A stretch of DNA of 64,000 bases from Sediminispirochaeta smaragdinae DSM 11293 (GTDB lineage: Bacteria; Spirochaetota; Spirochaetia; DSM-16054; Sediminispirochaetaceae): positions 4,290,582-4,354,581 of the forward strand of contig NC_014364.1 in assembly GCF_000143985.1 (NCBI RefSeq), written 5' to 3'. Both the position numbers and the translations under genes were made by a program. Shown one piece after another: positions 7,519 to 29,100 of the stretch (position 1 is its first letter; every line of letters starts with the position of its first letter). The notes beneath the pieces are model-generated. The model worked only from the letters and a program-made list of their open reading frames with translations, made no database searches and was not told where the DNA came from.

Positions 7519-8340
7519 TTAGCTCTTCTTTCCATTGCGTCTAAAGATAGCACCAATCCCACCGAAAAAAGAGTCTCTTTTCGGCCGATGTTGTCGTCCA
7601 CCCTCGGCATCCTTCGTCTCGGGCACGAGAGCTTCCCTGGAAAAGAAGTGCTCATGGCTGAAATCAAAGACAAGGTAGGATACATCTCCGTCGCGATTAT
7701 AGACGGGATGAACGGTGATCTGTTCTTTTTCCTTCTCAAGGTAAACATCAACGGCCGCATGGCTGTTTGCAGCCTTGGACAAAATCGATTGGGTAACAAT
7801 ATCCGCAGAGAGATTCTCTACAAAATCGCTTAGCAATTCGGAACGACTTGCCTTCTTTTTTTCCACATAGCCTTTGCTGATGTACTGAATACGGCCGAGA
7901 ATATCCGTGATAAGGATAGGTTGGTTCATGTTGCCGACAAGAAAACCGATGAGAGAAGACTGGGCTCCGATCCTGAGCACAAGTTTACGGTTGAGTTCGT
8001 TGAGCCTGGTGTAGAGACGGCTGATCTGCCGTCCCAGGCGCCCAAGTTTTCTCAAGCTCACTTCCGGTTTGTAATCATCGGAACCGGTATGTTCGATCAT
8101 CTTTTCGATTTCACGACTCACATTGCGACTTCGCATCAGTGCTGCACCGTAGAAAAGTGCAAGGATTGTAGCCACAACCACGGCAATAAACAGAAAACGC
8201 TCCGCCGTCAGTTTAAAACCAAGCTGGGAGGCAAGCTCGGGATGAAGGAAAAACCGATATCCGATTACTCCGAGGACAAGAACGGTCAAAACCGTTAAAA
8301 ATCCGAGAAGAAGAATGTCCCGCTTCGATACAATGATCAT
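7519..8340 (-). CDS. two-TM membrane protein with HAMP-like linker and PAS-like domain, function unknown
   Basis: The 273-residue protein has a first membrane segment at about 9-30 and a second at 48-70. A charged, coiled linker resembling HAMP (about 72-120) and a region at 130-225 resembling a PAS fold (PILITDILGRIQYISKGYVE, later VHPVYNRDGDVSYLVFDFSH) follow. A basic, Gly/Arg-rich tail closes it. There is no kinase, receiver, cyclase or methyl-accepting domain. It starts 8 nt after ktrA, so translation is probably coupled to the potassium transporter. I infer a membrane sensor or accessory protein of the Ktr system; no named family was recognised. Confidence 0.75.
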   Translation of the reverse strand: MIIVSKRDILLLGFLTVLTVLVLGVIGYRFFLHPELASQLGFKLTAERFLFIAVVVATILALFYGAALMRSRNVSREIEKMIEHTGSDDYKPEVSLRKLGRLGRQISRLYTRLNELNRKLVLRIGAQSSLIGFLVGNMNQPILITDILGRIQYISKGYVEKKKASRSELLSDFVENLSADIVTQSILSKAANSHAAVDVYLEKEKEQITVHPVYNRDGDVSYLVFDFSHEHFFSREALVPETKDAEGGRQHRPKRDSFFGGIGAIFRRNGKKS

Positions 8341-8348
8341 ATCAGCTC

Positions 8349-9041
8349 CTAATACTCTTTAACCGCTTCTATATCCTCATTTTTTCCGACTACCAGCAAA
8401 ACATCCTGCTCGAGGAGTACCGTTTCGCTGTCCGGGAATATCACCTCTTCATTTTTCAGGGGATTACCTACTTCATCCACCGAAAGTGTGGTCCGTTTTA
8501 TGGCGATAACGTTGATGGAGAAGCGTTTGCGAAGATCGAGTCGAACCAGGGTACTGTTGACGAAACTGCGGGGAACATAGACCTCGGCAAAGCTGATGGA
8601 ACTGCTTATGGGGATTCGATCAAGGACATGGGGAGCAATAAGTCGCTGGGCAATCCTTCTTCCTTCATCGACTTCAAGGTTGATCACCTCGTCGGCCCCT
8701 ACCTGCCGGAGAACCTCGGCATGAATCTCACTGATGGCCCTGGCCACAATATAGGGGACCCCGCTGCGTTTGAGTATGGCGGTGGTAAGAATCCCCGATT
8801 CAACGGCGTCGCCTATTGCCACGATGGCGACATCCACCTCTTCGAGGCTAAGAGCGGAGAGCCCCTCCTCATCGGTGGCATCCACCAAAACAGCCTGTGT
8901 TACGGCATCTTTCACCGCCTCCACCTGCTTAGGCTGATTATCAACGGCGATAACCTTTCCTCCCCGAGCCGAAAGCTCAAGAGAAACCTGGCGACCAAAG
9001 GTACCAAGTCCGATTACCGCAAAAACACGCTCTCGTGCCAT
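8349..9041 (-). CDS. ktrA: KtrA/TrkA-type potassium uptake regulatory subunit
   Basis: A cytosolic RCK protein that gates a KtrB-type potassium channel in response to nucleotides. The N-terminal Rossmann fold has VIGLGTFGRQVS (GxGxxG-type), the acidic end of strand 2 (AVDNQPKQVE) and VDATDEEGL. The C-terminal RCK_C domain covers about residues 140-230 and ends in LLVVGKNEDIEAVKEY. The 230 residues correspond to one RCK unit (KtrA size) and not the doubled TrkA. It is 22 nt downstream of ktrB, in an operon that also holds the dgcN/dgcA-like genes. Confidence 0.93.
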   Translation of the reverse strand: MARERVFAVIGLGTFGRQVSLELSARGGKVIAVDNQPKQVEAVKDAVTQAVLVDATDEEGLSALSLEEVDVAIVAIGDAVESGILTTAILKRSGVPYIVARAISEIHAEVLRQVGADEVINLEVDEGRRIAQRLIAPHVLDRIPISSSISFAEVYVPRSFVNSTLVRLDLRKRFSINVIAIKRTTLSVDEVGNPLKNEEVIFPDSETVLLEQDVLLVVGKNEDIEAVKEY

Positions 9042-9063
9042 ATTTCCTCCCTCTCGTCACACA

Positions 9064-10800
9064 TCACGTAGAAATATTACCCGTAGGATAGGCAACCGGG
9101 GACCGTTTCCCCTGCCTGGAAACGGCGGCAAGAATCGTCAAGGGACCGAGACGCCCCATAAACATCAAAGAAATGATTACCCATTTCCCCATACTACTTA
9201 GCCCTGCGGTGATTCCCGTCGAAAGACCGACGGTTCCAAAAGCGGAAACCGCCTCGAAAAGAATCCTATCCAGCGGAGCACGTTCGCTGGCGGAAAGCAG
9301 GATAGTCCCCCCGAAAACAGCAGAAACTCCAAAAAGGAGCACAAGAAAGGCGCTGTTGACCTGCTCCGGTTCGATGGAACGACGCATGATCGTCGCCTGC
9401 CCCCCTCCGCGAAGCACCGAACGAATATAAGCCCACACAATTGCAATATTGTTTATTTTCACACCGCCAGCCGTACTTCCCGAAGCAGCCCCGATAAACA
9501 TAAACACGATCATAACTAAAAGGGTGGGGCTCTTCAGAGAATCAAAGGGGATGGTATTAAAACCGGCTGTACGCAGGGTTACCGACTGAAAAAAAGCAGA
9601 GAGATACTGTTGAGCAAGGGGAAGCTGCGCAAGGGCTCCTGTGTGCTCCAGACCATAAACAAGGTAGGTGCCGGAAAGCAGAAGAACGGCCGTTCCCACG
9701 AGAACCAGTCGACTATTCAAACTAATAGAACCTATTCCCGGCCGCCGTCTGCGAAAAAGCGCAACGATACGGACAGAAAAAAAATGTCGGAGATCGCTAA
9801 TCACCGCAAAACTGATTCCGCCGATGATAATAAGCGCCGCCACCACAAGGTTTACCGAAAGCATGCCGCGAAATTGCTCGAGGCTGTCGGAAAAAAGGGC
9901 GAATCCCGCATTACAGAAGGCGGATACGGCATGAAAAACTGCAAGAAACAGGGCACTCTCAGAACCTCCGCCAGCTGCTCCCTTCATGGGAAAATAGAGC
10001 AAAAGGGCGCCGGCCGCCTCTAAAAAAAAGCTGGAAAAGATGATTGTTCGTAGATTCTTGGCAAGATTGGTCATATCTTTTTCGCTGAGCATATAGCTGA
10101 TCAACAGCTTTTCTTCCAAGCTCACCTGACGACGAAAAAGGAAGATGGTAAAGTAGCTGATGATCATGATCGAGAGGCCGCCGATCTGAATCAGAATAAG
10201 GATACCGAGATGCCCCCAAAAGGTAAAAACCGTGGCGGTGTCCACCACAATCAGTCCGGTAACGCAAACGGCACTGGTAGAGGTAAAAAGTGCATCAAGA
10301 AAGCCGAGCCCCCCCGGCGAAATGGTAGTGAAGGGGGCCATAAGATAAAGTGCCCCGGTCAGAATCACCAACAGAAAGCTAAACAGGATAGTCTGGGCAG
10401 GATGAACAGAGATGCTTTCTACAAAGGTATTCAGGCGCATGATTCTGCTGAAGGTCTTTAAAAGAATAAAAATATTCCTCACGATGACAACACCGAGACT
10501 TAAGCCCATGAGATCATCGGGCGACCTACCGACATAGATAAGCTTGTTATAGACAAAGAGTACGACAAAAGCGAGAACAAAGAGAAGAGAAAGGATGTTT
10601 CGCCGAAAATAGAGCCACCTCAGCTTTGCCTCGGCAAAATCACGATACACCTCGAAAAGCAGCAGGAAAAGAACAATAAAATCAAGAATATTCGAATAAA
10701 AGGCAAAATCGGCAGCAAGGCTGCTCTGTTCTATAAAAAGAGTTATGACGCTCAAAATAAGGGTGACGACGACTAGAACATTGGAGCGAAGCTTTTTCAC
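9064..10800 (-). CDS. ktrB: KtrB/TrkH-family potassium translocating subunit with N-terminal extension
   Basis: An inner-membrane potassium uptake channel. The four pore-loop motifs of the family are visible: TSTSAVCVTGL (about 173), HAVSAFCNAGF (about 290), TLRTAGFNT (about 405) and SAFGTVGLSTG (about 525). At 578 residues it is about 100-130 longer than classical KtrB. The excess is N-terminal: residues 1-130 hold three or four extra hydrophobic segments and a basic stretch (RWLYFRRN, FSRIMRLN) before the first canonical segment. The start codon overlaps the end of the dgcA-like gene by 4 nt (ATGA), a sign of translational coupling. ktrA follows. Confidence 0.93.
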   Translation of the reverse strand: MKKLRSNVLVVVTLILSVITLFIEQSSLAADFAFYSNILDFIVLFLLLFEVYRDFAEAKLRWLYFRRNILSLLFVLAFVVLFVYNKLIYVGRSPDDLMGLSLGVVIVRNIFILLKTFSRIMRLNTFVESISVHPAQTILFSFLLVILTGALYLMAPFTTISPGGLGFLDALFTSTSAVCVTGLIVVDTATVFTFWGHLGILILIQIGGLSIMIISYFTIFLFRRQVSLEEKLLISYMLSEKDMTNLAKNLRTIIFSSFFLEAAGALLLYFPMKGAAGGGSESALFLAVFHAVSAFCNAGFALFSDSLEQFRGMLSVNLVVAALIIIGGISFAVISDLRHFFSVRIVALFRRRRPGIGSISLNSRLVLVGTAVLLLSGTYLVYGLEHTGALAQLPLAQQYLSAFFQSVTLRTAGFNTIPFDSLKSPTLLVMIVFMFIGAASGSTAGGVKINNIAIVWAYIRSVLRGGGQATIMRRSIEPEQVNSAFLVLLFGVSAVFGGTILLSASERAPLDRILFEAVSAFGTVGLSTGITAGLSSMGKWVIISLMFMGRLGPLTILAAVSRQGKRSPVAYPTGNIST

Positions 10801-11870
10801 ATTGATACCTCAAAGCCAAGGCCAGGTTCCCCGGTTGGGTAGAGTAGTCCATTTTTCACCTGCACCGCAGAAGCCGTGGTATCGTTGGTGAAGTCGAAAT
10901 AGCCATCCAGATCGGCGTAGCGAACATCGGGCTGGGCGAGAGCGAAATGGAGCCCAGCAGCCACACCGAGGCCTGCCTCATCCATACAGCCGACCATGAT
11001 CTCCTGTCCGGCTGCCCGGGCGATAGCGGCAATGCGCTCGGCTGGACGGATACCGCCTGTTTTCATGAGCTTGATGTTAAGCATATCCACCAATTTTTTA
11101 CGGGCAAGATGAAAAGCATCGGAAAGCTTCAACAAACTTTCATCGGCCATGACAGGAACCACCCCGCGACCACCGGCACGAACATCTCCGAGAAGCGAAG
11201 GAGAGGCCGCCGGTGTCGGCTGTTCGATCGCCTCCAGTTTTGCTAAGGCGGTTTCTTCGATAAAACGCTGGGCCTCTTCAACGCTATAACCTTGATTCGC
11301 ATCAAAGCGCAGGCCGACTCCCGGCCCCAGAAGTTCCCGAAGGCGGCGCACCTTGCGAATGTCCTCTTCCAGATTGAGCCCTCCCTTCAGTTTAATCGCG
11401 GAAAAGCCCTTGGCGATCCAGCGACGAGTTTCTTCGAGGGTCTCTTCGAGGGGCATGATACCAACGGTGACGCTGGTTTTTATGCTGCTGCGGCAAGCGC
11501 CCAGTAGCTGAAAGAGGGGAAGATGGGCTTTTTTACCAAGCAGATCGAAAAGGGCCATGTCTACGGCCGCCCTGGCCGTCGGCTCCTTGGGTAAGACCTT
11601 TCCAAGCTTTTCGATAAGCATTCCCATCTTCAGAGGATCGCTGCCACGCAGCAGCGGCTCTGCCGTTTCACGAAGGGCCGGTAAAATCGTCGTTTCGTTT
11701 TCGCCCGTTACCATTTCATCGGGAGCCGCAACCCCGCAACCGGTAAGCCCCGTATCGGTTACAATACGAAAAAAGACATTCACCGTCTCATCAAGAGTGC
11801 TGTAGGCAATGGTAAAGGGGGCCCGAAGTTTAAGGGTCACCGGCCACACCTCACAGCGAAGAATTTTCAT
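10797..11870 (-). CDS. dgcA: enolase-superfamily epimerase; candidate N-acetyl-D-glutamate racemase
   Basis: A 357-residue member of the mandelate racemase/muconate-lactonizing group. The KxK acid/base pair is AIKLKGG (K160, K162), metal ligands are D190 (RFDANQGYS), E216 (AIEQP) and D243 (MADES), and the second-face lysine lies in MLNIKLMKTGG (about 267). These fit L-Ala-D/L-Glu epimerases and the related DgcA. It overlaps the DUF1611 gene upstream by 4 nt and ktrB downstream by 4 nt. In marine bacteria a DUF1611 protein (DgcN, D-glutamate N-acetyltransferase) paired with DgcA converts D-glutamate to N-acetyl-L-glutamate. The assignment here rests on that pairing. Plain dipeptide epimerase for peptidoglycan peptides is the alternative. 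Confidence 0.8.
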   Translation of the reverse strand: MKILRCEVWPVTLKLRAPFTIAYSTLDETVNVFFRIVTDTGLTGCGVAAPDEMVTGENETTILPALRETAEPLLRGSDPLKMGMLIEKLGKVLPKEPTARAAVDMALFDLLGKKAHLPLFQLLGACRSSIKTSVTVGIMPLEETLEETRRWIAKGFSAIKLKGGLNLEEDIRKVRRLRELLGPGVGLRFDANQGYSVEEAQRFIEETALAKLEAIEQPTPAASPSLLGDVRAGGRGVVPVMADESLLKLSDAFHLARKKLVDMLNIKLMKTGGIRPAERIAAIARAAGQEIMVGCMDEAGLGVAAGLHFALAQPDVRYADLDGYFDFTNDTTASAVQVKNGLLYPTGEPGLGFEVSM

Positions 11871-12946
11871 ACGATTCGGCCCTTAAAAAGGTCAACCAAG
11901 GCATCGAGCTTCTGAAGTAGGGGATCGGCCGTCGGCAATCCCGTAGCCGCGGCGATCTCTTCACATATAGAGGGAACCGCCTCCGGTTCAAGCCCCTCAT
12001 GGTTGATGGTGATGGCCACAACGGGACATCCCGAAAGCATTTCGATCGCCTGAATTTGGGTTTCAAGAGAATGCAAGGGGTAGCCGGGCAGCCCATCATA
12101 CTCCTTGCGGGCGGGAGCATGCTGCAGCACCACGGCCTGAGGTCTACCTGCAGCAAGGATTTCAAAACCACCAGGATAAATCGGATTCATCAAACTCCCC
12201 TGCCCTTCGATAACCATGGCCCTGGGATGTTCGGCATCCCAGGCAGAAAGAATGGCATGTTCGATTTCTCCGGCAACAAAGTCATTGATAAGGCTATCCA
12301 TAATGAGTGAATAACGAGCCCCCTGGAGCCAAGCCGTTTGGCCGGTTCCTATGAAGGCGGTATCGATATCCGCAGCATCCAAGGCGTCTTTCACCTTCCA
12401 TGCCGTGGTTCGCTTTCCCACCGCAGAGTCCGTTCCTAGCAGAGCAATCCGATAGCTCTCAACCTCGGATATACGACCGGTAAAGGGATGCAGGTATTTC
12501 CGTTCGGGGGTCTTTCGAATATCCCGGAGTGTAACCCCGTTTTTCTTCGCAAGAGCCGCGATTTCGGGATCATCCGACAAAAAGCTGTGGAGTCCGGAAT
12601 CAACGCAGAGCCCGGCCGAGACAGCCTCAAGTACCGCTGCTCTTGCACTCTCGGAAAGGGCACCCCCATCGGGAGCGAGGCCAATCACAAAATGGGTGAG
12701 GGGTGTTCCGCTTTTTTCTGCCGCTTCCCGTGCATGGGAAAGCCTTTCATAGATTGGAATGCCGTTTGCCTTCCGATCGAGTATCAAGCCGGCATCACGT
12801 CCGGCATAGCGGCTATCAAGGAGAGCGACTACCTTGTAGCGCTTGGTAAAACGAACTAAACCATGGGCCGTTTTACCGTAAGGGGTATTAAAAAAGCCTT
12901 CGCAATAAACAACGGCATTGCCGTCGAAACCGCTTTTTTCAGCCAT
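11867..12946 (-). CDS. dgcN: DUF1611 protein; candidate D-glutamate N-acetyltransferase
   Basis: A 359-residue DUF1611-family protein. The N-terminal half (1-150) is Rossmann-like, and the C-terminal half begins with a P-loop-like GTDSAVGKRTT (171-181). It continues through FIGTGQTAWLQGARYSLIMD, the VIEGQGSLMNP strand and QHAPARKEYDG, all hallmark blocks. Family members now called DgcN acetylate D-glutamate; older annotation was just DUF1611. The ATG at 12946 has AAGGAGG 6 nt upstream, and a near-consensus promoter lies 27 nt before it. It is first in the dgcN-dgcA-ktrB-ktrA-sensor unit. The substrate is inferred, not shown. Confidence 0.82.
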   Translation of the reverse strand: MAEKSGFDGNAVVYCEGFFNTPYGKTAHGLVRFTKRYKVVALLDSRYAGRDAGLILDRKANGIPIYERLSHAREAAEKSGTPLTHFVIGLAPDGGALSESARAAVLEAVSAGLCVDSGLHSFLSDDPEIAALAKKNGVTLRDIRKTPERKYLHPFTGRISEVESYRIALLGTDSAVGKRTTAWKVKDALDAADIDTAFIGTGQTAWLQGARYSLIMDSLINDFVAGEIEHAILSAWDAEHPRAMVIEGQGSLMNPIYPGGFEILAAGRPQAVVLQHAPARKEYDGLPGYPLHSLETQIQAIEMLSGCPVVAITINHEGLEPEAVPSICEEIAAATGLPTADPLLQKLDALVDLFKGRIV

Positions 12947-12972: not shown

Positions 12973-13001
12973 ATTGTAGCGTGAAGCCGGGGCTGATTCA
13001 A
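12973..13001 (-). promoter_or_regulatory. sigma70-type promoter of the dgcN-ktr operon
   Basis: On the minus strand TTGAAT (13001-12996), a 17-nt spacer and TACAAT (12978-12973) read toward dgcN. Five of six bases match the consensus in the -10 and four of six in the -35. Confidence 0.65.
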
Positions 13002-13472: not shown

Positions 13473-14366
13473 TCATCGGCAAGCGGGCAGAAGCACCTTA
13501 TAATAGACATTCATGCTTTCCAGTCCACCGCCGATGAAGGTATTGTTCGGTAGAGTCCCGGCATAGTGATAGCCCCCTTTGAGGAAAGTTGCATTCATGC
13601 CGAGGCTCTTCAGCCTGGCGATGGTGTAGGCTACCGGTATCTTTTTCTCCACTGTTTCCTGTTCCATGCGTCCGAGGAGAAAAAGAGCAAGGCCTGCCCC
13701 CCTGGCTTCGGGAAGTACTGCGAAATCGGTCATTTCTACACAACGGGAAAAAGCGTGATATTCGACCGAGGCAAGAGCGATCAGCCTCCTGTCTTCTCTA
13801 TCTCTAATACCCAAATACTTGACATGGCTTTCCATAGTCTTCTTCAGATATGCGGGGCTATCAATTGGAAACGGGTAACGGTCAAAGACCCGACCGTACA
13901 GTTCCGCCATCTCCGGAATATCATCGGGAACACAATGGAACCATCGAAACCGTCCAGCGAGAGGAGGAAACGATACCTGTTCCACCTGTGCAAGCAGGCT
14001 TTGGAAGGATCTCATTTCTTCTCTATCGACTTGTCTACGTTGCGACATCCCTCTCCCCTTCCCTTCTTCACCATAGTAGGCAAGAAAGGCGACATCGTCC
14101 TGACCTCGAAAAAGCCGCGGGACGGTTGATTCCATGCAAAAGCCGGCCAGCAGGAAGGGAACAACCCGTTTCATGGGAACCTTGGCAAATATTTTTGAAT
14201 AACCACGTTCACGATAGAGAATCAGAAGTGAAGCTATAAGCCGTTCATCCTTTTGCATGGCTATCGTGGCGGAGGCCTCGTCGGCCAAGGCCATGAGATA
14301 GATACGATCTCCGTCGGGGCCGTGTTGGATCAGAGCCCCCTCAAGCTGCTGCATAACATCATTCAT
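13473..14366 (-). CDS. ablB: beta-lysine N6-acetyltransferase (GNAT family)
   Basis: Acetylates beta-lysine on its side-chain amine, giving N-epsilon-acetyl-beta-lysine, a compatible solute of methanogens and some bacteria. The GNAT fold is at the C-terminus: [21 protein letters not shown] is the acetyl-CoA-binding strand-loop, and [20 protein letters not shown] and a [14 protein letters not shown] end typical of AblB follow. It comes directly after lysine 2,3-aminomutase, with start candidates overlapping its end; I chose the ATG at 14366 ([10 protein letters not shown]), which overlaps ablA by 8 nt. A longer form from 14387 is possible. About 297 residues. Confidence 0.88.
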
Positions 14367-15669
14367 TGCGTCGACCGATCCTTTCATTATCTTCAGGGGT
14401 AAGGGAATAGGTTTCGTCCCATTCAGAGAGAAGCTTTTCGATACCGATGGCGTTTCGCTCTTCGGCATCGGCAAATTTCAATTGAAGGGTGCACTCTTCA
14501 CACGTACCGTCACAGCCTGGGTTGTGATATTGCTCGGGCTCACGATAGGTAGTAATAACACCCTCATAGTTACGAAGCACGACCTTGTTGGGGGACCAGC
14601 TCAAAAGATAGTTCGGCATGATCGGGATCTTTCCCCCGCCTCCCGGGGCATCGATCACATAGGTGGGAACGGAAAAACCGGAGGTATGTCCGATCAGACT
14701 TTCGAGAATTTCAATCCCCTTTCCCACCGGGGTCCGAAAGTGGGTAAGCCCTTCGGAGAGATCGCACTGATACAGATAGTAGGGTCTGACTCTGGAATAA
14801 ACCAGCTTCTGCACAAGGGTTTTCATGAGTCTGGGGCAATCGTTCACCCCGGCAAGCAGTACCGATTGGTTTCCCAGAGGAATCCCTGCATCGGCAAGCT
14901 TTGCGAGGGCGGTCCTACTTGCATGTGTCAGCTCTCTAGGATGATTGAAATGGGTGTTAAGCCAGACCGGATGATGCTTCTTGAGCATCAAAACCAGATC
15001 ATCGGTGACACGATAGGGTAAGACCACAGGCATGCGGCTCCCAATTCTAACAATTTCAACATGCTCGATCCTGCGTAGTTCAGTCAGAATCCAATCGAGA
15101 TAGTCGTCGTCAAGCATAAGAGGATCGCCGCCGGAAAGCAGGACATCACGGACCGATGGAGTATTTCGAATATAATCAATACCCTTCCTGATCTGATTTT
15201 TATTTGGAATGGAATCGACATCACCTACTTTTCGCTTTCTGGTACAGTGGCGGCAATACATGGAACATATATTGCTGACATGGAAAAGAACCCGATCTGG
15301 ATAACGGTGGGTTAGCCCCTCCACAGGACTATCCTTATCTTCATGAAGAGGATCTTCCCGTTCCCACTTCTGGACCACCAACTCCCTGGGATCGGCAAAG
15401 GATTGAAGGAAAATGGGATCGTTTTGGTAATCATCCTTCTCAATCAGGCTGAGGTAATAGGGAGTAATAGAAAGGGGAAATTGGGCTACCGTTGCCTCGA
15501 GTTCTTGCCGCTTATCTTTATCAAATTGTATTCCGGTAAGGGTCTCAAAGCTTGATATACTTCGTATTGAATGTTTCAACTGCCATCGCCAATCTCTCCA
15601 TTTGGTAAAACCGGCTCCATTATCTATTTTTTCAGCTAGATCGCTCTGTTTCTTGGGGAATTTAATCAT
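14359..15669 (-). CDS. ablA: lysine 2,3-aminomutase (radical SAM, PLP)
   Basis: Converts L-lysine to L-beta-lysine. The radical SAM cluster motif is C135-x3-C139-x2-C142 in [16 protein letters not shown]. The [12 protein letters not shown] block and the PLP-lysine motif [10 protein letters not shown] (about residue 345) are intact, and the C-terminus carries the zinc-type cysteines of [11 protein letters not shown]. The protein has the usual 436 residues. AAGGAG precedes the ATG and a near-consensus promoter lies just upstream. With ablB it makes an osmolyte pathway; lysine fermentation is less likely because no downstream kdd/kce genes are near. Confidence 0.96.
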
Positions 15670-25233: not shown

Positions 25234-26370
25234 ATGATCATCTCGCCAAAATTGAAGAAAGACCATATAATCGGCCCCATGGAAAATCGATCGGAGTATC
25301 AAACCTTTGATCTCCTTGCAGACGCTTCGAACGCCTTCCCGGAGATCCAGGAAGCCATCTACGATGCAGCAGCCATTGCCTCAGACCATGATCGTCCCAT
25401 TCAGGAACGTATATCAGCCTTTGAAGATATCATCGATTCAGAAGTCGGAGATACCCTTCTGCTTCGGGCGAGAAACATCGAACGGGAATTCGGACTCAGG
25501 CAGCTCTATCTAAAATTCGAGGGAGGAAATCCATCGGGAACTCAAAAAGACCGGATTGCCTTTGCCCATGTTCGCGATGCAATGCGTCGAGGTTATAGTG
25601 GTATCGCCATAGCAACTTGCGGAAATTACGGAGGAGCCATGGCCTTTGCCGCCCGGCTCGCGGGACTTTCCTGTACGGCATTTATTCCTCAGAGCTATAA
25701 AACCCGTAGAATTAGCGAGATGGAAGGATACGGCGTGGAAATCATCCGAACGCCGGGAGACTACGAAGATGCTGTAGACCGATGTCGGGAATATGCGACG
25801 GAAAAGGATATCTACGATGCAAACCCGGGAGATACAAACTCAGTGTTACAAATGGAAGCCTATGGCCAGATTGCCTATGAATTGTACGACGAGCTTCGTG
25901 ATGCTCCCGCTGCCGTTGCAATCCCCGTTTCAAATGGATCAACCCTGGCGGGAATACAACGCGGTTTCATCAGTCTATACAGAAGAGGAAAAACGAGTAG
26001 AATGCCGAAATTGATCGCAGGCTCTGCAACCAAAAAAAACCCGATCATCAAAGCCTTTAAAAGCGGTCTTTCAGAATGTTCTGATCTTGCTCCCGATTCG
26101 ATACATGAGTCAGCGGTTAATGAACCACTGATAAACTGGCACTCTATCGATGGAGATCAGGCACTTTCGTCGATTTACAACTCCAGAGGTTGGGCCATGG
26201 ATGCCACCGATAAGGAGATGGTTGCCTTTGCAAGGATCATTCGGGAGAAAGAGGGGCTAAATGTCCTTCCTGCGTCTACTGCGGGTTTGATTGCCATGTT
26301 GAAGCGGCATAAAGAGGAGCCGCTTCCGGGAGATCGTTATGTGGCAATCCTTACTGGCCGTAAACAGTAA
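25234..26370 (+). CDS. threonine synthase-like PLP enzyme
   Basis: A fold-type II PLP enzyme of 378 residues. The PLP lysine is in KFEGGNPSGTQKDR (around residue 105), followed by the phosphate-binding TCGNYGGAMAFAA. The later block AIPVSNGSTLAGIQRG also fits the threonine synthase family, which turns O-phosphohomoserine into threonine. The N-terminus is unlike the long bacterial ThrC, and no thrA/thrB genes are adjacent, so a related eliminase is possible. Neither the ATG at 25234 nor the one at 25279 has a good ribosome binding site. Its stop codon is one base before the left end of an insertion sequence. Confidence 0.8.
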   Translation: MIISPKLKKDHIIGPMENRSEYQTFDLLADASNAFPEIQEAIYDAAAIASDHDRPIQERISAFEDIIDSEVGDTLLLRARNIEREFGLRQLYLKFEGGNPSGTQKDRIAFAHVRDAMRRGYSGIAIATCGNYGGAMAFAARLAGLSCTAFIPQSYKTRRISEMEGYGVEIIRTPGDYEDAVDRCREYATEKDIYDANPGDTNSVLQMEAYGQIAYELYDELRDAPAAVAIPVSNGSTLAGIQRGFISLYRRGKTSRMPKLIAGSATKKNPIIKAFKSGLSECSDLAPDSIHESAVNEPLINWHSIDGDQALSSIYNSRGWAMDATDKEMVAFARIIREKEGLNVLPASTAGLIAMLKRHKEEPLPGDRYVAILTGRKQ

Positions 26371-26371
26371 C

Positions 26372-27610
26372 TACTGTCCGGAATCGTGGTGGAAAATGAA
26401 TAAAATCTCCTTTTCTCGTAGTTACTTATAGTAAGAACAATACGAAAAAGGAGTTTCCCATGTTCCTTCCCCCCTTCTGCCCCAATCCCCATTGCCTCAA
26501 TCACTTCTCTCCAAAAGGCCACTGGTTCTTTAGAACAGGTTCCTACTCTACCCAAACCTCTCCCCGTATCCAAAAGTTCAAATGCAAAACCTGCCACCTC
26601 TCCTTCTCCACTCGCACCTTCAGCATCGACTACTGGACCCATTTCCACCTCCCCTACACAACCATCCTCTCTCACCTCGTCACCAGCTCCGGTATCAGAG
26701 ACCTCTCCCGTATCCTTAAGGTCTCATGCTCCACCGTCTCAGACCGTATCCGTCGCCTTTCCCACCAGTGCCTTGCCTCTTCCGCCTCCCTCACCTCAGA
26801 CATGAACCTCCACGAAGACCTGGTCGCAGACGGCTTTGAAAGCTTCGTCTGTTCCCAGTACCTCCCCAACAACATCCACATCCTGGCAGGAAAAGACTCC
26901 CAGTTCTGGTTCCTCTCCGACTATGCACAGCTGACCAGAAAGGGACGTATGACCTGCTATCAGAAGAAGAAAAACAGGGTGATCAAGGAGAAGCTAAAGG
27001 TCTATAGAGGAAGTGTTTATCAGTCCTTTCAGAATGTCGTGGCAAAGGTGCTTGCCCTGACCGAGCAATCGGAGAGGGATAGGGTGAAGTTGTATACCGA
27101 TGAGCATACGCAATACAAAAGGGTGATGAAGGGACTACCGGCAGAGGTGGCAGGGAGGATAGAGCACCACAGGATCAGCTCGAAGAGGGTTCGGGATCTG
27201 TGTAATCCCCTCTTTAGTGTGAATTATCTTGACAGGGAGATACGGAAGGATGACTCGGATCATGTGAGGCAGACGGTCCAGTTTGCAAGGAGTACGGTGA
27301 ACATGCTGGAGCGGCTTGAGATCTACCGGTATTATCACAACTTTATGAAGCCCTATCGGGTTGGGGGAAAGGATGAGAAGCGGGGGCAGACACATGGGGT
27401 GGTGGCTGGGATAGAGGGGAAGAGGATAGCATCCGAGCTGAGGACTCTTTACAGTAGGCGGAGGTTTTTCTTACGGAATCAGCCCATGAATCGGAGTGGG
27501 AGGGAGCTGTGGGTCAGGTGTATTCCTACACCCTTACGGTGGGTGATTGACTATCTGCCCTCTTATGCATGGGCTTAAAGGTAAAGGAATCACCACGATT
27601 CCGGACAGTA
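26372..27610. mobile_element. complete insertion sequence with perfect 20-bp terminal inverted repeats
   Basis: The left end TACTGTCCGGAATCGTGGTG (26372-26391) is the exact inverse of 27591-27610. The 1239-bp element holds one transposase gene with an intact frame. No obvious target duplication longer than 2 bp is seen; TA at both outer ends could be a TA duplication or part of the repeat. It sits between the stop codon of the threonine-synthase-like gene and the gdhA terminator, so it disrupts no gene. I cannot assign the family by name. Confidence 0.92.
26460..27578 (+). CDS. IS transposase with N-terminal zinc ribbon
   Basis: The 372-residue frame is intact. It has a zinc ribbon (C7, C12, C42, C45), a helix-turn-helix-like stretch (ILSHLVTSSGIRDLSRILKV), then candidate catalytic acids D124 (LVADGFESF), D214 (LYTDEHTQY) and E284 (MLERLEIYR). 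This layout resembles IS1/IS1595-type DDE transposases, but the match is loose. AAAAGGAG lies 5 nt before the ATG. Base composition is odd: the first part of the coding strand is very C-rich and G-poor, and the last part is the reverse, unlike any neighbour. Confidence 0.85.
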   Translation: MFLPPFCPNPHCLNHFSPKGHWFFRTGSYSTQTSPRIQKFKCKTCHLSFSTRTFSIDYWTHFHLPYTTILSHLVTSSGIRDLSRILKVSCSTVSDRIRRLSHQCLASSASLTSDMNLHEDLVADGFESFVCSQYLPNNIHILAGKDSQFWFLSDYAQLTRKGRMTCYQKKKNRVIKEKLKVYRGSVYQSFQNVVAKVLALTEQSERDRVKLYTDEHTQYKRVMKGLPAEVAGRIEHHRISSKRVRDLCNPLFSVNYLDREIRKDDSDHVRQTVQFARSTVNMLERLEIYRYYHNFMKPYRVGGKDEKRGQTHGVVAGIEGKRIASELRTLYSRRRFFLRNQPMNRSGRELWVRCIPTPLRWVIDYLPSYAWA

Positions 27611-27687: not shown

Positions 27688-29025
27688 TTAGTAACCGAGA
27701 TCGAGCATCGCATCGGCCACTTTCTTGAAACCGGCGATATTCGCTCCCTTTACATAATTGATGTATCCATCCTCAGTACGTCCCTCACGGACACAAGCAT
27801 CATGGATGTCTCCCATGATCCGTTTCAACTTTTCATCCACCTCTTCGGCGGGCCAGGAAAGTTTCATGGAGTTCTGGCTCATCTCCAAACCGGAAACAGC
27901 AACCCCGCCAGCATTAGCGGCCTTTCCAGGAACAAAGGGGACTTTCGCTGCAAGGAATTTTTCTACAGCCTCTGCGGTACAACCCATATTACTGGTCTCG
28001 ACCACGAATTTGACACCGTTTGCCATCAGTTTGTCTGCATCATCTCCGTGCAGCTCATTCTGGATGGCACAGGGGACAGCAATGTCTACGGGAACATCCC
28101 AAGGACGCTTTCCGGGGAAAAACTTTGCACCAAACTTAGCGGCATAAGGCTCAACCACGTCGTTATTGCTGGCGCGCAGTTCAAGCATGTAGTCCCATTT
28201 CTCCTGGGTATTGACTCCCGCTTCGTCGAGAATATATCCATCGGGCCCCGAAATGGTAAGGACCTTCGCCCCCAGTTCGGAAGCCTTCATACAGGCACCC
28301 CAGGCGACGTTGCCGAATCCGGAAACAGCAATTCTCTTGCCTTTCATGGATTCTCCGGTACTTTCCACCATCTGCCGAGTAAAATACATCGAACCGAAAC
28401 CGGTGGCTTCCGGCCTGATCAAAGAACCGCCCCAGTTCCTTCCTTTTCCTGTCAACACGCCGGCATTTACCAACTGGAGGCGTTTATATTGTCCGTAAAG
28501 GTATCCGATTTCCCTGCCGCCGACACCGATATCGCCTGCAGGTACATCGGTTTCGGGACCAATGTAACGCCAGAGGCTTGTCATGAAGCTGCGGCAGAAA
28601 CGCATAATTTCATTATCGCTTTTTCCTTTGGGGTTGAAATCACTTCCCCCTTTTGCACCTCCCATCGGAAGGGTCGTCAGACTATTTTTAAAGGTCTGCT
28701 CGAAACCAAGGAATTTCAGCGTACCCAATGTCACGCTGGGGTGGAAACGCAAACCGCCTTTATACGGACCGATAGCGTTATTGAACTGTACACGATAGCC
28801 ACGATTTACCTGAACATCCCCGTTATCATCTTCCCATTCAACCTTGAAGGTGTAGATGCGATCCGGTTCGGTAATCCGTTCAAGTATTTTCGCATTCAGA
28901 TATGCCGGATTATCGTTTACAACATCGATAACCGATTCTATTACTTCCTGAACAGCCTGAATAAATTCAGGTTCGGCCGGATTCTTTTTTTCAAGCTCGG
29001 CCATAAATTCTTTTATGTTGTACAC
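27688..29025 (-). CDS. gdhA: glutamate dehydrogenase (NADP type, hexameric)
   Basis: Interconverts 2-oxoglutarate plus ammonia and glutamate. The blocks NNAIGPYKGGLRFHP, TTLPMGGAKGGSDFNPKGKS, DVPAGDIGVGGREIGYLYG and GKAANAGGVAVSGLEM match E. coli GdhA along the whole length. I place the start at a GTG (29025), with GGAGG 8 nt upstream, because that reproduces the family N-terminus (VYNIKEFMAELEKKNP); longer frames add unsupported residues. The protein has 445 residues. It has its own promoter and terminator. Glutamate made here could feed the potassium-glutamate osmotic response suggested elsewhere in the window. Confidence 0.96.
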   Translation of the reverse strand: MYNIKEFMAELEKKNPAEPEFIQAVQEVIESVIDVVNDNPAYLNAKILERITEPDRIYTFKVEWEDDNGDVQVNRGYRVQFNNAIGPYKGGLRFHPSVTLGTLKFLGFEQTFKNSLTTLPMGGAKGGSDFNPKGKSDNEIMRFCRSFMTSLWRYIGPETDVPAGDIGVGGREIGYLYGQYKRLQLVNAGVLTGKGRNWGGSLIRPEATGFGSMYFTRQMVESTGESMKGKRIAVSGFGNVAWGACMKASELGAKVLTISGPDGYILDEAGVNTQEKWDYMLELRASNNDVVEPYAAKFGAKFFPGKRPWDVPVDIAVPCAIQNELHGDDADKLMANGVKFVVETSNMGCTAEAVEKFLAAKVPFVPGKAANAGGVAVSGLEMSQNSMKLSWPAEEVDEKLKRIMGDIHDACVREGRTEDGYINYVKGANIAGFKKVADAMLDLGY

Positions 29026-29071
29026 TCTCGTCCTCCATACGGTATGTCTCTTGGCGTTGGGACACGTTGTT

Positions 29072-29100
29072 ACTCTAACGCTCAAAACAAACGCAGTCAA
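29072..29100 (-). promoter_or_regulatory. putative promoter of gdhA
   Basis: On the minus strand TTGACT (29100-29095), 17 nt, TAGAGT (29077-29072). A leader of about 40 nt follows. The remainder of the divergent gap to 29235 is AT-rich with no further clear site. Confidence 0.55.

Follow-up and report, generated by a model that had tools for sequence, protein, structure and literature searches.

A DUF1611–epimerase gene pair joined to the ktrB potassium-uptake gene in Sediminispirochaeta smaragdinae, and its relation to a widespread gene cassette

The window, a 64,000-nucleotide stretch of the Sediminispirochaeta smaragdinae DSM 11293 genome, contains, on the minus strand, an operon with the gene order DUF1611 – epimerase – KtrB – KtrA – membrane PAS protein. 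The first four open reading frames are located where the preliminary description had placed them; the fifth gene starts 8 nt past ktrA. The features discussed below are as follows.

11867–12946, minus strand: DUF1611 protein, 359 aa, with a DUF1611_N Rossmann-like domain and a P-loop DUF1611 domain; remotely homologous to DgcN by sequence
10797–11870, minus strand: enolase-superfamily (MR_MLE) epimerase, 357 aa, assigned by sequence to the dipeptide-epimerase branch, with the catalytic lysine pair and the metal ligands kept
11867–11870, minus strand: DUF1611/epimerase overlap, ATGA, 4 nt, read directly from the sequence
10797–10800, minus strand: epimerase/ktrB overlap, GTGA, 4 nt, with a Shine-Dalgarno-like GAGG within the epimerase gene
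9064–10800, minus strand: KtrB/TrkH-family potassium-uptake subunit of 578 aa, extended at the N-terminus by four helices (residues 1 to approximately 135)
8349–9041, minus strand: KtrA, single-RCK regulatory subunit, 230 aa, with TrkA_N and TrkA_C above cut-off
7519–8340, minus strand: membrane protein, 273 aa, with two transmembrane helices and a PAS fold, kept behind ktrA in Spirochaetia
12973–13001, minus strand: promoter-like site TTGAAT-17-TACAAT, 9 of 12 positions matching; the number of such sites is not above chance
25234–26370, plus strand: PLP threonine-synthase-like enzyme, the third cassette member, displaced

As had been proposed, the pair and ktrB are joined in a single overlapping unit, with exact 4-nt overlaps at the two junctions (ATGA at 11870–11867 and GTGA at 10800–10797), and each downstream start is preceded by a Shine-Dalgarno-like stretch within the preceding gene (AAGGG for the epimerase, GAGG for ktrB). 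The GTG start of ktrB is backed by homologues starting at the identical residue, and the GTGA overlap is retained in the sister species (L026). The single good promoter claimed in front of all genes is weaker than stated. The location of the candidate at 13001–12973 makes it plausible, with a divergent small gene on one side and, on the other, a strong AAGGAGG ahead of the first ATG, but it matches 9 of 12 positions, and the region holds four such sites against 5.3 expected from shuffled sequences.

The pair had been described as dgcN/dgcA-like, and neither the curated cut-offs nor the trees support this identity for either gene. The DUF1611 protein scores 159.5 bits with the DgcN equivalog model (NCBIfam NF041892), for which the cut-off is 480. 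In the tree of DUF1611 proteins, where several other rows are on long branches, the annotated DgcN proteins form a clade with 100/100 support, and the window protein is outside it. Residues 84–353 are homologous to the structure 7xrj, which itself groups with DgcN. Judged by its sequence, it is a P-loop protein homologous to DgcN, an amino-acid N-acetyltransferase, but belonging to another clade. A literature search on DUF1611 retrieved no functional paper.

Similarly, the epimerase reaches 144.4 bits with the DgcA equivalog model (NF042940; cut-off 400), has approximately 27% identity to DgcA and falls outside the DgcA clade (100/100). It clusters with dipeptide epimerases, closest to the 3rit branch (98/96), and its best PDB matches are dipeptide epimerases as well. 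Its highest NCBIfam score, 199.6 bits, is with the Thermotoga L-Ala-D/L-Glu epimerase model (NF041118), again under the cut-off (500). The acid–base pair Lys162/Lys268 and the metal ligands Asp191, Glu219 and Asp244 (YkfB numbering) are kept in the window epimerase and in 66 of 66 cassette homologues. These comparisons place the protein in the enolase superfamily, dipeptide-epimerase branch. The DxD motif on the last strand (DLD in the window epimerase) was considered as a marker separating this branch from DgcA and dropped, since DgcA carries it too and it is hence not diagnostic.

Tyr23-Ser24 of the window epimerase stands where the SRG motif of DgcA has Arg23-Gly24, so that the arginine common to DgcA (SRG) and YkfB (LRT) gives way to Tyr-Ser, and Arg24 of YkfB corresponds to Ser24. 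We take Arg24 of YkfB to be the contact to the glutamate side chain. Because this arginine is replaced, glutamate is not the predicted substrate, although a prediction made from a single position is no proof. The earlier suggestion that the unit might link glutamate supply to potassium uptake is not supported. The structure 3rit may be that of a cationic dipeptide epimerase; we mention this as an idea on which no conclusion depends, and a literature search for work on cationic dipeptide epimerases returned nothing relevant.

The transporter genes are assigned by several models. KtrB scores 333.7 bits with TIGR00933 (cut-off 331.15) and 220.9 bits with Pfam TrkH (cut-off 27), and it is the single TrkH-family match in the S. 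smaragdinae genome. KtrA, encoded beside this TrkH-family gene, has one TrkA_N (94.7 bits) and one TrkA_C domain (42.8 bits), both above cut-off. Together with the gene of the membrane PAS protein, ktrB and ktrA form a conserved cluster in Spirochaetia even where the DUF1611–epimerase pair is missing.

Two further observations concern these proteins. Residues 1–135 of KtrB (10396–10800, minus strand; also L032–L049) form a four-helix N-terminal extension common to many Spirochaetia, with a conserved helix pattern R-x6-K-x3-R-x2-R. Its sequence has no match among solved structures, and its predicted model (pLDDT 77.7) is most like the voltage-sensor domains of TPC2, Kv4.2 and Ci-VSP, with Z of 9 to 10; the likeness to a voltage sensor is nevertheless unproven, since Foldseek E-values exceed 4 and Z values of this size are common among helical bundles. 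The membrane protein at 7519–8340 (minus strand) has a PAS fold according to Foldseek (E down to 7e-8) and no Pfam match, and its gene is directly behind ktrA in at least 12 Spirochaetia loci; it is a candidate sensor or regulator of Ktr.

The pair is part of a wider cassette. A DUF1611 alignment scan of 84,980 species genomes yielded at least 559 relatives, of which the best 80, by construction the nearest ones, were taken; these come from many phyla, archaea included. When 12 Spirochaetia loci are added, a threonine-synthase-type PLP enzyme (PRK06381) is present in at least 71 of the 92 loci and the epimerase in at least 64, both figures being lower bounds because a number of ORFs were wrongly picked or truncated at contig ends. 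The genes usually overlap or nearly touch, in the order PLP threonine-synthase-like enzyme – DUF1611 – (PP-loop/creatininase protein) – epimerase. The optional member, which in many loci and phyla stands after DUF1611 and ahead of the epimerase, is an uncharacterised protein whose N-part is PP-loop-like (SGGKDS) and whose C-part is a creatininase, the two being either fused or encoded separately (L066:4018–6369; L115:9056–11363); its resemblance to MurL is weak (24.5 bits, cut-off 700), and we do not claim this identity. The cassette is common outside halophiles. It occurs in many bacterial and some archaeal phyla, and no described function was found for it in the sources searched.

In a DUF1611 group more distant from the window type, the gene overlaps that of an alanine/ornithine-racemase-type PLP enzyme and not of an enolase-superfamily enzyme (L158:6875–9192; L159:6887–9171; L185:5945–8088). 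By gene order, DUF1611 proteins therefore accompany amino-acid stereo-inverting enzymes of differing kinds.

The S. smaragdinae window also contains the PLP partner, 12 kb from the pair and beside a transposase-like ORF (26460–27578, plus strand) and a glutamate dehydrogenase gene (27688–29100, minus strand). A search of this genome did not find the PP-loop part and gave creatininase-domain matches only.

As for the joint with ktrB, a first view based on 13 genomes, that it was confined to one genus, was abandoned because a search across the class, covering 395 genomes and finding the DUF1611 protein in 31 Spirochaetia genomes, revealed other linked genera. In a member of another spirochaete family (G228, locus L194) the PLP enzyme, DUF1611, epimerase and ktrB genes follow each other in one direction with three ATGA overlaps, including that between the epimerase and ktrB. 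In G100, ktrB, ktrA and the membrane protein gene are divergent from the cassette and 0.7 kb away from it, and the distance between ktrB and the cassette is approximately 4 kb in G129 and 7 kb in G046. Overall, 4 of 19 spirochaete genera have the pair and ktrB no more than 10 kb apart, against 0.27 expected, and same-strand joints shorter than 100 bases occur in two genera, against 0.001 expected; these expectations are rough, as they assume random gene order and independent genomes and the 10-kb limit was set post hoc. The joint is more than a peculiarity of one genus.

The check proposed earlier, whether the gene order is conserved in spirochaetes, gives a positive answer in a limited way: the ATGA joint of L194 and the four linked genera agree with conservation, but most relatives, the sister genus among them, lack the order. 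The two sister-genus genomes, G002 and G003, have the pair on one contig and ktrB on another, with ktrB adjoining a ribonucleotide reductase gene, and most Spirochaetia having both the pair and ktrB have them apart. Neither ktrB nor ktrA was seen near the cassette in approximately 80 loci of other phyla (the best 80 of at least 559 relatives). The epimerases of the window and of L194 belong to separate clades of the tree, and the other sampled members of both clades lack the joint. Hence the joint either formed more than once or was lost many times.

Further osmotic or potassium-related genes are found close to some of these loci. An MscS channel gene and/or a RimK-type ligase gene with a TrkA_C domain is near the cassette in G129 and G046. 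In three spirochaetes, G100, G129 and G046, a RimK-type ligase with a C-terminal TrkA_C domain is encoded close to both the cassette and ktrB (L023:11081–12346; L198:601–1791; L186:12101–13291); in the S. smaragdinae genome such a ligase gave no match at E 1e-20. Just upstream of the unit, in both species of the genus, are the acetyl-beta-lysine genes (13473–15669, minus strand) for lysine 2,3-aminomutase (ablA) and beta-lysine N-acetyltransferase (ablB); ablA of the sister genus is on another contig. Acetyl-beta-lysine serves other organisms as a compatible solute. S. smaragdinae, formerly in the genus Spirochaeta, is an obligate halophile requiring 1–10% NaCl (PMC3035371). The recurrent joining is evidence of a shared need, and the simplest common theme is osmoadaptation, by guilt by association.

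The reading that we tentatively prefer, giving it somewhat less than an even chance, is a functional link, in which potassium uptake is co-expressed with the stereo-inversion of a blocked amino acid or dipeptide, perhaps in osmoadaptation. The unit would then combine half of the widespread uncharacterised metabolic cassette with the operon of the sole TrkH-family potassium-uptake gene found in the genome. The DUF1611 protein would block the amino group of an amino acid, or modify it otherwise, and the epimerase would invert the alpha carbon via proton abstraction between its two lysines; we infer this order of reactions, their substrate (glutamate not being predicted) and the osmotic purpose. 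The 4-nt overlaps may couple the synthesis of KtrB to translation of the pair, so that the solute-modifying step and potassium uptake would be produced together, most plausibly for osmoadaptation of a halophile; the link would be one of co-expression, with no physical gating. This reading is weakened by the separate location of the pair and ktrB in the sister genus and in most Spirochaetia having both, by the missing linkage in approximately 80 loci of other phyla, and by the occurrence of the cassette outside halophiles. A bolder extension, that the PLP–DUF1611–(PP-loop/creatininase)–epimerase cassette makes a novel N-blocked, stereo-inverted amino acid or dipeptide which in spirochaetes is itself a compatible solute accumulated with potassium via the translationally coupled Ktr, is in our view unlikely.

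A serious competitor, which we consider only somewhat less likely, is that a rearrangement put the pair ahead of ktrBA, and that the genes are merely co-transcribed, with no functional link and with the parts working as they do elsewhere. It agrees with the separate contigs of the sister genus, where ktrB has a ribonucleotide reductase gene as its neighbour, with the standing of ktrB–ktrA–PAS as a conserved cluster in its own right, with the broken-up cassette of the window, its PLP gene 12 kb off beside a transposase-like ORF, and with the fact that the partner retained across phyla is the PLP gene and not ktrB. Opportunism accounts less easily for the exact joint in two separate epimerase clades and for the nearness of the pair to ktrB above expectation. 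That the pair is a bona fide DgcN–DgcA system, converting D-glutamate to N-acetyl-L-glutamate and so feeding potassium glutamate under osmotic stress, would fit the homology to 7xrj and the overlapping or touching genes of true dgcN–dgcA pairs (L157, L161), but the scores far under both cut-offs, the separate clades, the low identity to DgcA and the lost SRG arginine make it quite improbable. Still less probable is a role in muropeptide recycling, with the epimerase acting on L-Ala-D-Glu and DUF1611 as an auxiliary enzyme: the Thermotoga epimerase model gives the highest score and the best PDB matches are dipeptide epimerases, yet that score is far under its cut-off, Arg24 of YkfB is replaced by serine, and none of the genes next to the pair was recognised as acting on murein peptides.

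While the protein families are known, both the combination of the pair with Ktr and the cassette are undescribed in the literature as far as searched. The recurrent spirochaete joint with a potassium importer offers a concrete lead to the physiology of the cassette; besides, not every pair of DUF1611 and enolase-superfamily genes should be called dgcN/dgcA.

Compared with true DgcN–DgcA systems (L157, Vibrio tritonius; L161, Enterobacter), the window pair has the same arrangement, a DUF1611 gene followed by an overlapping or touching gene of an enolase-superfamily racemase, and shares the folds and the catalytic lysines; it differs in being far under both curated cut-offs, in its separate clades and missing SRG arginine, and in that the natural partner of window-type pairs is the PLP threonine-synthase-like enzyme. 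On the V. tritonius plasmid (L157:3839–8825) the true dgcN–dgcA pair is accompanied by a D-amino-acid transaminase gene, and genes for an MscS-type channel and a TrkA/TrkH pair are found 2 to 3 kb away, a single case that may be due to chance. With the dipeptide epimerases (YkfB, 1jpm; 3jva; 3rit) the window epimerase shares its tree position, 34–41% identity, the catalytic lysines, the metal ligands and the DxD motif, and with 3rit also the GCMDE stretch, whereas the cassette epimerases have a conserved Tyr23 followed by Glu, Ser or Gln at position 24 instead of Arg24 of YkfB, and always adjoin DUF1611 in the loci studied. Finally, the transporter resembles KtrAB systems in having a TrkH-family pore subunit and a single-RCK KtrA, but its KtrB carries the four-helix N-terminal extension, and the unit has the membrane PAS protein behind and the DUF1611–epimerase pair ahead.
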